This document shows, piece by piece, positions 22,265-24,922 of a DNA stretch of 64,000 nucleotides. Numbering within the stretch: position 1 is the stretch's first letter; every line of letters starts with the position of its first letter. The stretch comes from Nocardiopsis eucommiae (lineage in GTDB: Bacteria > Actinomycetota > Actinomycetes > Streptosporangiales > Streptosporangiaceae), in the NCBI GenBank assembly GCA_018388625.1, contig CP074402.1, positions 744,001 through 808,000 of the forward strand, in the 5' to 3' direction. A program made the position numbers and the translations under genes. The notes under the pieces were generated by a model. The model ran no database searches. It saw only the letters and a program-made list of their open reading frames with translations, and was not told the origin of the DNA.

Positions 22265-23215
22265 GTGACCGTTGATACCACCGTAACCGTGCGGGTCCCC
22301 GCGAAGGTGAACCTCCAGTTGGCGGTGGGGCCCAGACGCGAGGACGGTTTCCACGCCCTCGTGAACGTGTTCCACGCCGTCTCGCTGTTCGATGAGGTTA
22401 CCGTCAAGGCGGCGTCGCCGCGTCGGCCGCGTGCCCTCACCGCGTTGACCGCCACCGGGCGGTCCGAGTCCCACCTGGCCAGGGTGCCGCTGGACGAGGG
22501 CAACCTCGCGGCGCGCGCCGCCCTCCTGCTGGCCGAGGAGACGGGCGCGGGCTTCCCCGTGGACATCCACCTCGACAAGCGCATCCCGGTGGCGGGCGGC
22601 ATGGCCGGGGGCAGCGCGGACGCCGCCGCCGCGCTGGTGGCCTGCGACCGCCTGTGGGGCTGTGACCTGTCTCGGGAGCGGCTCCTCGACCTCGCCGCCC
22701 GGCTCGGCAGCGACGTGGCCTTCGGGCTGGTCGGTGACACGGCGGTGGGGACCGGTCGCGGTGAGCTCCTCGAACCGATGGCCAGCCCCGGGCGGTACCG
22801 GTGGGTGTTCGCCCTCTCCCCGCGCGGCCTGTCCACCGCCGACGTGTTCGGTGAGTACGACCGGCTGCGCCCCGACGCCCCGGAACCGCGTCTGGACACC
22901 GCCCTGGAGAAGGCACTGGCCAGCGGCGACGCGGTGGCCCTGGGCGCCTCCCTCAGCAACGACCTCCAGCCCGCGGCGCTCTCGCTGCTGCCCGAGCTGC
23001 GGCGCACCCTGGACGCGGGCCGCGGTGCCGGTGCGCTCGGTGCCCTGGTGTCCGGATCCGGGCCCACGTGCGCGTTCCTGGTCGGGGGCGGGGCAGAGGA
23101 CCCGGGCGCGGTCGCGGAGCGGGAGGCCGGAGTGGTGGCCGCGCTGCGCGCCACCGGCCTGTGCGAGCAGGTCATCGCGGCCGACGGCGACGTCCCGGGA
23201 ACCACCGTCGTGTGA
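22265..23215 (+). CDS. ispE: 4-diphosphocytidyl-2-C-methyl-D-erythritol kinase
   Basis: A GHMP kinase of the non-mevalonate isoprenoid pathway, phosphorylating CDP-methylerythritol. The N-terminus VRVPAKVNLQLAVGPRREDGFH is the family start. The ATP loop is PVAGGMAGGSADAAAAL, and the C-terminal motif GALVSGSGPTCAFL is intact. 316 residues from GTG at 22265, normal length. It is the sole isoprenoid gene here. The following transketolase pair uses the same class of sugar-phosphate chemistry but is separated by its own promoter. Confidence 0.95.
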   Translation: MTVDTTVTVRVPAKVNLQLAVGPRREDGFHALVNVFHAVSLFDEVTVKAASPRRPRALTALTATGRSESHLARVPLDEGNLAARAALLLAEETGAGFPVDIHLDKRIPVAGGMAGGSADAAAALVACDRLWGCDLSRERLLDLAARLGSDVAFGLVGDTAVGTGRGELLEPMASPGRYRWVFALSPRGLSTADVFGEYDRLRPDAPEPRLDTALEKALASGDAVALGASLSNDLQPAALSLLPELRRTLDAGRGAGALGALVSGSGPTCAFLVGGGAEDPGAVAEREAGVVAALRATGLCEQVIAADGDVPGTTVV

Positions 23216-23220
23216 CGTAT

Positions 23221-23230
23221 ATCACGTGAT
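23221..23230. promoter_or_regulatory. 10-bp palindrome ATCACGTGAT
   Basis: A perfect palindrome within an A/T-rich patch just after the ispE stop and about 30 bases upstream of the -35 element of the transketolase promoter. Possible activator or repressor site; the factor is unknown. Confidence 0.3.
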
Positions 23231-23260: not shown

Positions 23261-23291
23261 TTGACCTCAACCATGGTTGAGGAAGAAGACT
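23261..23291 (+). promoter_or_regulatory. MerR/SoxR-type promoter of the split transketolase
   Basis: TTGACC (23261-23266) and AAGACT (23286-23291) are separated by 19 bases, the stretched spacing typical of MerR-family targets. The spacer region holds the perfect 18-bp palindrome CCTCAACCATGGTTGAGG (23265-23282), whose outer CCTCAA/TTGAGG equals the known SoxR box ends. The -10 lies six bases before ATG 23298, so the transcript would be leaderless. No MerR-type gene is in the window. Confidence 0.55.
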
Positions 23292-23297
23292 GGTGGC

Positions 23298-24008
23298 ATG
23301 ACGACGCCAGCCACCTTCTCCAGGTACGCCGACCTCCCCGCGCTGATCGGGCTCATGGAGGGTGACGAGAAGCACAACGCCGCCGCTCACTCCACCCTCG
23401 ACGTTCTCTGGGTCCTCTACGACCGGGTCCTCGCCGTCTCCCCGGAGACCGCCGAGGACCCGGCGCGGGACCGCTTCCTCCTCTCCAAGGGCCACGGTCC
23501 TGCCGCCTTCTACGCCGTCCTCGCTGCCAAGGGCTTCCTCGACGTGCCCACCCTGCGCGGTTGGACCGCCTTCGACTCTCCGCTCGGCCACCACCCCGAC
23601 CGCGTCCTGGTGCCCGGAGCGGAGATCGGCAGCGGTTCCCTCGGCCACGGCCTGCCGCTGGGTCTGGGCACCGCCCTCGGGCTGCGGGCCCAGGGGACAC
23701 GCCGCGCGGACGGCACCGCACCCCGCGTGGTGGTGCTGGTCGGAGACGGCGAACTCGACGAGGGCAGCAACCACGAGGCCATCGCGGCCGCCGCGCGCCT
23801 GGGCGCCGACAACCTCACCGTCGTGGTGATCGACAACGCCTCCGCCACCCACGGCTGGCCCGGCGGTGTCGGACGCCGGTTCGAGGTGGAGGGCTGGGAG
23901 ACCCGCGAGGTCGGCGGCCGCGACCACGACGCCCTCCAGGACGCCTTCACCCGCCCGACCACCGGACGGCCGCTGGCCGTCGTCGCCCGCGTCCGCAACG
24001 GAAACTGA
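23298..24008 (+). CDS. transketolase, N-terminal (TPP-binding) subunit
   Basis: A 236-residue split transketolase half. The thiamine-diphosphate motif is VVVLVGDGELDEGSNHEA followed by VVVIDNAS. SKGHGPAAFYA and the active-site GSGSLGHGLPLGLG loop are also present. With the next gene it forms the full enzyme that moves two-carbon units between sugar phosphates. ATG at 23298 fits the promoter (leaderless); an upstream TTG at 23277 lies inside the operator and is less likely. The C-terminal subunit starts 14 bases after the stop. In such split enzymes the physiological role often lies outside the core pentose pathway. Confidence 0.88.
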   Translation: MTTPATFSRYADLPALIGLMEGDEKHNAAAHSTLDVLWVLYDRVLAVSPETAEDPARDRFLLSKGHGPAAFYAVLAAKGFLDVPTLRGWTAFDSPLGHHPDRVLVPGAEIGSGSLGHGLPLGLGTALGLRAQGTRRADGTAPRVVVLVGDGELDEGSNHEAIAAAARLGADNLTVVVIDNASATHGWPGGVGRRFEVEGWETREVGGRDHDALQDAFTRPTTGRPLAVVARVRNGN

Positions 24009-24022
24009 AAGCGAGCCCGGTC

Positions 24023-24922
24023 ATGCGTGACACCTTCGCCGCCGCCACCCACGAGGCACTCGACCGCGACCCCCGGACCGCGCTGGTCCTCGCCGCCATC
24101 TCCGCGGGCATGTTCCGCCGCGCCGCCGCCCGACACCCGGGCCGGGTGATCGACCTCGGCATCCGCGAACAGGCGATGATCGGCGTCGCCGGGGGCCTGG
24201 CCCTCACCGGCATGCGCCCCATCGTGCACAGCTACACGCCGTTCCTGGTCGAGCGGCCCTTCGAGCAGATCAAGATCTCCCTCGGCCACCAGGACGTGGG
24301 CGCGATCCTGGTGAGCATCGGCGCCTCCCACGACACCTCGGCCGAGGGGCGCACCCACCAGGCACCCGAGGACGTGGCGCTCCTGGACACTCTCCCCGGC
24401 TGGACCGTGCACGTGCCGGGCCACCCCGACGAGGTGCGGACCCTGATGGAGAGGGCGGTGCCCGGGGACGACCTCGTGTACCTGCGGCTGTCCACCCACA
24501 CCAACAGGGCGGCCCTGCCCGTCGGTCCGCGCCTCAACGTGCTGCGCACCGGTTCGTCCCGCTCCGCCGGGGTGGTGGTGGCGGTCGGACCCATGCTGGA
24601 CCGGGTGCTGGAGGCCACGGCGGGCCTCGACGTCACCGTCGCCCACACCTCCACCGTCCGGCCCTTCGACCACGAGGGGCTCAGCGCGCTCGCCGGGGCG
24701 GCGGGTAACGCCGACGTGCTGATCGTGGAGCCCTACCTCAAGGGCACCTCCGCCCACGAGGTGGCCGAGGCCCTGGCCGACCGGCGCCACCGCCAGGCGT
24801 CCCTGGGGGTGTCCCGCCGCGCCGAGGTCCGCGCCTACGGCACCGCCGCCGACCACGACCGGCTCCACGGCCTGGACGTCGAGGGGATCGCCAAGTCCGC
24901 CCGGGACTTCTTCCTGGTGTAG
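24023..24922 (+). CDS. transketolase, C-terminal subunit
   Basis: A 299-residue partner of the preceding subunit. It carries the pyrimidine-binding domain with the conserved glutamate in VIDLGIREQAMIGVAGGLAL, the segment PFLVERPFEQIKISLGHQ, HQAPEDVALL, and the C-terminal domain (VGPMLDRVLEA, VEPYLKGTSAHEVAEAL). ATG at 24023, 14 bases after the first subunit, indicates an operon. A 10-bp perfect hairpin follows the stop. Assembled length of the two subunits is shorter than the classical one-chain enzyme, as usual for split forms. Confidence 0.88.
   Translation: MRDTFAAATHEALDRDPRTALVLAAISAGMFRRAAARHPGRVIDLGIREQAMIGVAGGLALTGMRPIVHSYTPFLVERPFEQIKISLGHQDVGAILVSIGASHDTSAEGRTHQAPEDVALLDTLPGWTVHVPGHPDEVRTLMERAVPGDDLVYLRLSTHTNRAALPVGPRLNVLRTGSSRSAGVVVAVGPMLDRVLEATAGLDVTVAHTSTVRPFDHEGLSALAGAAGNADVLIVEPYLKGTSAHEVAEALADRRHRQASLGVSRRAEVRAYGTAADHDRLHGLDVEGIAKSARDFFLV

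Follow-up and report, generated by a model that had tools for sequence, protein, structure and literature searches.

Which regulator reads the stretched promoter in front of a split transketolase operon in Nocardiopsis eucommiae, and why would such an enzyme be placed under its control? The window, that is the whole stretch of 64,000 nucleotides that was analysed, comes from an assembly of 6.1 Mb in 2 contigs (completeness 84%), and contains two adjacent genes on the + strand: tktN (23298..24008), which encodes the N-terminal subunit of a split transketolase (236 aa; PF00456, 3.6e-24), and tktC (24023..24922), which encodes a C-terminal subunit of 299 aa with the Pyr and C-terminal domains (PF02779, 1.8e-29, the match to PF02780 falling just under the cut-off). 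The closest solved chain to TktN is the N-chain of the Carboxydothermus split transketolase (6yak, 2.2e-27), while the solved chains nearest to TktC are DXP synthases, with the Carboxydothermus C-chain 6yaj close behind. TktN is 91% identical to its counterparts in Nocardiopsis metallicus and N. terrae. From comparisons of sequence we consider it highly likely that the site upstream of tktN is a SoxR-dependent promoter of the tktN-tktC operon. The observations behind this reading are the geometry of the site, its conservation, the linkage and grouping of SoxR genes, and the regulon context.

The promoter has a -35 hexamer TTGACC (23261..23266, + strand) and a -10 hexamer AAGACT (23286..23291, + strand), separated by an over-long spacer of 19 bp (23267-23285) and followed by GGTGGC and the tktN ATG (23298-23300). 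Centred in the spacer is a perfect 18-bp dyad, CCTCAACCATGGTTGAGG (23265..23282, no strand assigned), our predicted soxbox. Hexamers, spacer, dyad and an ATG six bases beyond the -10 had all been reported in the first-pass annotation, and each was confirmed in the sequence. The geometry and the outer half-sites match the E. coli soxS promoter as read from NC_000913.3 (TTTACC-19-TATACT, with CCTCAA and TTGAGG in its box CCTCAAGTTAACTTGAGG), which bears out the earlier remark that the ends of the dyad are those of a SoxR box. When searched for with up to 3 mismatches, the promoter pattern has 1 match in the window, against 0.03 expected from shuffles. The palindrome on its own was rejected as proof: it is weak evidence because the 64-kb window holds 3 perfect 18-bp palindromes, the soxbox among them and the other two composed entirely of G+C.

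The stretched promoter is present in 111 of 117 distinct tktN upstream regions, a figure that applies to the better-scoring tktN matches, so that more distant ones may lack the box. The loci were drawn from named records (25 of 69 loci: L072, and 24 taken in sequence order with E no higher than 4e-73), from the family (the best 30 of 50 listed), from the genus of the Streptomyces cylindrosporus locus (the best 30 among the matches listed) and from the class (of 55 listed places all but five, G571:C19, G580, G599, G774 and G703); the 124 loci so gathered were reduced to 117 by dropping 7 duplicates, identical over a stretch of 120 bases that begins at the best-scoring site. The box score counts the -35 and the dyad only, leaving out the -10 and the position of the ATG. 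Its threshold, 15.5, which 7 of the 111 loci score exactly, was set after the shuffle control had been seen; the best score in that control was 15.0, in 1660 dinucleotide shuffles of 83 regions (somewhat shorter stretches). With a slightly different score, the opposite-side stretches of 15 minus-strand loci gave 10.5-13.5, versus 16.5-22 on the right side in 14 of the 15. The TTGA of the -35, being part of the score, is invariant in 111/111 boxed loci; A2 and T6 of the -10, outside the score, occur together at the 19-bp spacing in all 111, whereas any other spacing between 14 and 23 bp gives the pair in 0-10 of these loci. Since the -10 positions and the distance to the ATG, neither of which enters the score, agree, we regard the box as confirmed. 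It is missing from four of the 117 loci (L016, L025, L292 and L304), and in two further loci that fall under the threshold (L293 and L302) the box is weaker and of the TTGAGT type; both share the ATG spacing and have a SoxR gene in divergent orientation. Absence of the dyad from orthologous promoters had been named beforehand as the finding to look for against a MerR-type site, and the test left the proposal standing.

The gene itself is widespread. Matches to tktN with E below 1e-60 occur in 33 of 120 genomes of the family (42 at 1e-30); of the 295 genomes in the genus of the S. cylindrosporus locus, at least 155 have one below 1e-70 (at least 166 at 1e-35, the extra 11 being far weaker), and of the 394 in the class at least 53 have one at 1e-50, the genus and class counts being lower bounds in which at most 9 and 7 first-look candidates, respectively, were scored per genome.

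The position of the start codon is equally regular. An in-frame ATG is found 6-7 nt past the -10 in all 111 boxed loci (the first ATG at 6 nt in 53, at 7 nt in 57, and in one row at 1 nt with another at 7), and a motif resembling a Shine-Dalgarno sequence lies just 5' of it in only two. An in-frame stop codon is present no more than 66 nt upstream of the ATG in 102/111. Further upstream, 58 of the loci have an in-frame ATG, GTG or TTG: 46 of these have none beyond the -10, and the other 12 have one in the stretch that separates the -10 from the ATG; these codons would be outside the mRNA because the start predicted from the promoter, if right, lies 3' of them. Transcription is expected to begin 7-8 nt past a -10 hexamer, and together with the 19-bp spacer this makes the A of the tktN ATG (23298, + strand) the predicted first base of the message. 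The leaderless tktN mRNA that had been proposed is supported by the geometry, and the promoter is very probably both SoxR-controlled and leaderless. In genome G126, an ABM-like gene (L255) and a DUF4440-like gene (L269) have their start codons 37 bases from the -35, the same offset as tktN, and since they share it, tkt may not be the only gene with a leaderless soxbox arrangement.

At many of these loci a candidate regulator is encoded next to the box. Of the 111 boxed loci, 34 have within 600 bp a divergently oriented MerR gene whose product carries the [2Fe-2S] motif CxxCxCx5C; a profile search adds linked SoxR genes that the motif search missed at L028, L150, L151 and L291 (among these four the one at L291 is the most distant, some 630 bp away from its box), giving 38/111, and the two loci with boxes under the threshold, L293 and L302, bring the count to 40/117, with all 40 divergent. 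This arrangement is seen in Lentzea, Actinokineospora, several Nocardiopsis and some Streptomyces; among the Streptomyces-set boxed loci, which are best matches to the window protein and not a random sample, the motif search found no SoxR within 600 bp in 26 of 29, and one in each of the other 3. The linked SoxRs group together, both in a first tree (36 linked and 2 unlinked rows, support 98/97) and in a larger one, where all 40 linked and 4 unlinked sequences form a single 44-row clade (support 97/95), bearing in mind that the SoxR trees have few columns, a midpoint root and some long branches. This grouping suggests that the linked protein is a dedicated paralogue, which we name SoxR2, apart from the global SoxR1. 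A few fast-evolving SoxRs (L205, L212 and L316, in G124, G129 and G120) fall on a long branch inside the SoxR1 clade, and G129 and G120 hold a second, ordinary SoxR1 besides.

The boxes differ along the same division. Compared with the 16-base TTGACCTCAA/TTGAGG, boxes with a linked SoxR match at 13.7 positions on average, with 0/38 perfect, versus 15.4 and 39/73 for unlinked boxes, and an E. coli-like GTTAAC core is present in 10/38 linked boxes versus 0/73 unlinked ones. The p-value of this linked/unlinked contrast (7e-15) is overstated because the rows are related; still, the pattern suggests a joint change in box and regulator.

In the window genome no SoxR gene was found beside tkt. Its only SoxR, a SoxR1 (G000:C1:2824961-2825380), is unlinked to tkt, scores 232.9 bits against a TIGR01950 cut-off of 116.9, has the [2Fe-2S] cysteine motif CIGCGCLSLDTC and shares 64% identity with the SoxR that is linked to tkt in N. 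chromatogenes. Being the only SoxR found there, this global SoxR1 is most likely the regulator of tktNC in N. eucommiae. More generally, SoxR exceeds the TIGR01950 cut-off in 30/31 genomes (including G088, which lacks tktN) and in 24/25, some genomes recurring. No SoxR over this cut-off was found in Nocardiopsis sp. MG754419 (G046 and G123, which appear to be the same genome, with identical tkt coordinates and box), where perfect 16-of-16 soxboxes precede tkt (L010) and an ABC exporter; a draft gap is a possible reason. Overall, conservation, the linked SoxR genes and the soxS-like box support the MerR/SoxR-type stretched promoter of the first-pass annotation and probably narrow it to SoxR.

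The same box occurs in front of other genes. The exact pattern TTGACCTCAAn6TTGAGG is matched 30 times, at 29 places, and 10 of the 11 Nocardiopsis genomes searched have it; the reversed pattern gives 0 matches. By target, these places precede tkt (8), an ABC exporter (5), a Zn-dependent quinone-oxidoreductase-like protein (4), PNPOx-like (3) and SDR-like (2) proteins, one each of FMN reductase, RidA and MFS-like proteins, and single ABM-like and DUF4440-like proteins, both below the Pfam cut-off; L077 has no convincing gene 3' of the box, and the L271 site is outside the stretch checked for targets. Nine proteins, taken from these targets or from those behind weaker sites of the window genome, were checked with Pfam (FMN_red, ADH_N twice, MFS_1, ABC_membrane, Ribonuc_L-PSP, ABM, PNPOx_N and DUF4440), and the others, SDR included, were named by eye from likeness. 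The window genome itself has weaker soxbox-like sites before MFS, ABC exporter, quinone oxidoreductase and RidA genes. The first-pass annotation had called for a genome scan for the dyad with an adjoining MerR gene: soxbox-like sites do occur elsewhere, but the neighbouring regulator did not turn up, as a motif search of up to about 1.5 kb on each side found no MerR-like ORF beside the Nocardiopsis-set boxes. Among the sites listed in the own-genome and Nocardiopsis box scans, none is near the full-length transketolase gene of N. eucommiae. A RidA-family gene stands behind a soxbox-like site both in this genome (L079, 1 mismatch) and in G129 (L254), and is a possible further SoxR target. Behind two other soxbox-like sites of N. 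eucommiae (L078 and L081) the frames break early, the quinone oxidoreductase having 145 aa versus 336-337 aa in relatives and the SDR-like frame 61 aa, which reflects either indel errors (the assembly is 84% complete) or pseudogenes.

A second input to the tktN promoter is also possible. At 23211..23226 (no strand assigned) there is a CRP-like dyad, TGTGACGTATATCACG, with 1 mismatch to TGTGAn6TCACA, which we take to be the CRP consensus; it overlaps the end and stop codon of the upstream gene, presumably ispE by its sequence, which ends at 23215. It is the sole such site in the window at no more than 1 mismatch, although 6 are found at no more than 2. At the latter stringency it is present in 17 of the 19 loci from core Nocardiopsis, versus 11 of 92 other boxed loci, and in the core loci its start is nearly fixed, 47-50 bp 5' of the soxbox -35. 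The genome has 5 PF13545 matches over the cut-off, i.e. CRP/FNR-type regulators, and the site is possibly a candidate for such an input.

What the enzyme is for can be approached through its residues. In an alignment to E. coli TktA (10 rows, with the full-length transketolase of N. eucommiae left out), TktN keeps the ThDP and catalytic positions H26, H66, H100, D155, E160 and N185 in 10/10 rows and TktC keeps E411 and H473 in nearly all, and no residue of TktN aligns with H261. We take R358, S385, H461 and R520 of TktA to be the residues that hold the sugar-phosphate acceptor. Here the alignment is partly uncertain: the H461 position is Leu in 8/10 rows, and the R520 position is not conserved, with a nearly invariant Arg a few residues before it. 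The nearly invariant Arg2 of TktC may be the counterpart of R358, which is our own reading of the alignment and not the placement that it gives.

One role, plausible though tentative, is that TktNC passes its two-carbon ketol unit to a carbonyl compound or aldehyde of an unusual kind, such as a reactive electrophile or an antibiotic intermediate, and so acts in detoxification or tailoring like other actinomycete SoxR targets. The apparently altered acceptor-site residues point this way, as do reports that changes at R358, S385, D469 and R520 of E. coli TktA raise activity on aromatic aldehydes and that the Carboxydothermus split enzyme accepts phenylacetaldehyde (PMC7661550, where R358, S385 and R520 are named), and the resemblance of S. 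coelicolor SoxR targets to tailoring enzymes and transporters (PMC4146615). Nevertheless, the Carboxydothermus enzyme is reported to take bulky aldehydes without those substitutions, and the argument depends on the partly uncertain acceptor-residue alignment.

TktNC could also stand in for the pentose phosphate transketolase under stress, keeping up the supply of NADPH and of aromatic precursors once the full-length enzyme has been damaged, a role that we find conceivable but somewhat doubtful. FumC and AcnA serve as back-ups for other steps in E. coli. The N. eucommiae assembly does contain one separate full-length transketolase, the ThDP and catalytic positions of TktNC are kept, and a 1999 title cited in PMC13010160 ties transketolase to superoxide. 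On the other hand, Leu at H461 and the lack of conservation at R520 speak against it, and S. coelicolor SoxR is reported to be oxidised by redox-active compounds and not by superoxide (PMC5288332), so that superoxide itself becomes a less likely signal for tktNC. NADPH supply as the sole role is also lowered in likelihood, short of being rejected.

As for the regulator, it is improbable that the core Nocardiopsis box is read by another, non-[2Fe-2S] activator of the MerR family that shares the CCTCAAC..GTTGAGG half-sites. Such proteins could be supplied by the 27 PF13411 matches in the N. eucommiae genome, Nocardiopsis sp. MG754419 keeps the box with no SoxR over the cut-off, and the inner dyad (AACC..GGTT in core Nocardiopsis) is unlike the E. 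coli core AAGTTAACTT. However, the motif search to about 1.5 kb on each side of the Nocardiopsis-set boxes revealed no MerR-like ORF, every one of the 17 (14 + 3) MerR-like ORFs found by motif at 30 family and 30 Streptomyces tkt loci has the SoxR cluster motif, and the co-targets agree with the product types given for the SoxR regulon in PMC4146615. An ordinary sigma-70 promoter with a chance palindrome can be set aside as extremely improbable, for although perfect palindromes recur in the window, the dyad, the 19-bp spacing and the ATG distance are conserved together in 111/117 distinct loci.

Under SoxR control, a dimeric [2Fe-2S] SoxR would sit on the 18-bp dyad within the over-long spacer, and a redox-active compound (a quinone or phenazine) would oxidise its cluster, distorting the DNA so that RNA polymerase could use the -35 and -10 together; the first base to be transcribed, 7-8 nt beyond the -10, would then be the A of the tktN ATG, and the mRNA would have no leader. 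Direct oxidation of the SoxR cluster by redox-active compounds, followed by changed promoter binding and open complex formation by RNA polymerase, has been described (PMC5288332). We infer binding by SoxR at this site and, because SoxR is a redox sensor, redox induction of tktNC, the physiological role of which would be defence against redox-active metabolites. The divergent SoxR2-tkt arrangement is perhaps ancestral, and in such linked loci tkt would occupy the place that soxS has in E. coli. A possible history, which we offer with reserve, is that a leaderless tkt had a private SoxR, and that after loss of this SoxR (in core Nocardiopsis and most sampled Streptomyces) the global SoxR took over and the box moved to its consensus, the enzyme using a non-canonical acceptor in defence against, or tailoring of, redox-active metabolites. 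If the promoter is read by SoxR as proposed, a transketolase-type enzyme would be controlled directly by SoxR throughout a large group of antibiotic producers, the joint divergence of a regulator paralogue and its box would have a clear example, and the tkt loci would provide a large conserved set of leaderless promoters.

How does this compare with known systems? The likeness to E. coli soxS extends to the 19-bp spacer, the centred 18-bp dyad with CCTCAA/TTGAGG ends and, in the linked loci, the divergent soxR. In contrast, the E. coli target is a regulator whereas tkt encodes a metabolic enzyme, 47 nt separate the -10 and the ATG in E. coli whereas the tktN ATG is at the predicted start, and the SoxR of the window genome is unlinked. 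The Carboxydothermus hydrogenoformans enzyme (6yak/6yaj, PMC7661550) is likewise split into two chains, the PP domain on one and the Pyr and C-terminal domains on the other, but tktNC is found in actinomycetes, N. eucommiae also has a full-length enzyme, and the acceptor residues appear to differ. The S. coelicolor SoxR regulon, described as an ABC transporter, oxidoreductases, a monooxygenase, an epimerase and a flavoprotein reductase (PMC4146615), resembles the Nocardiopsis box targets in that redox enzymes and exporters are under direct soxbox control, the two sets being largely similar when product types, not S. coelicolor sequences, are compared; it differs in that no transketolase is among its six targets. 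A footnote to Table 4 of the same paper does, however, place a putative SoxR site upstream of SAV_1623, a putative S. avermitilis transketolase that may correspond to tktN. The first-pass statement that no such control of transketolase was known in actinomycetes is corrected by this footnote, and otherwise no report was found. Neither the leaderless geometry, nor its breadth, nor a dedicated SoxR for tkt was recognised in the literature searched, which mostly excluded subscription papers. The kind of control is already known, and what appears to be new is tkt as a conserved SoxR target and the SoxR dedicated to it.
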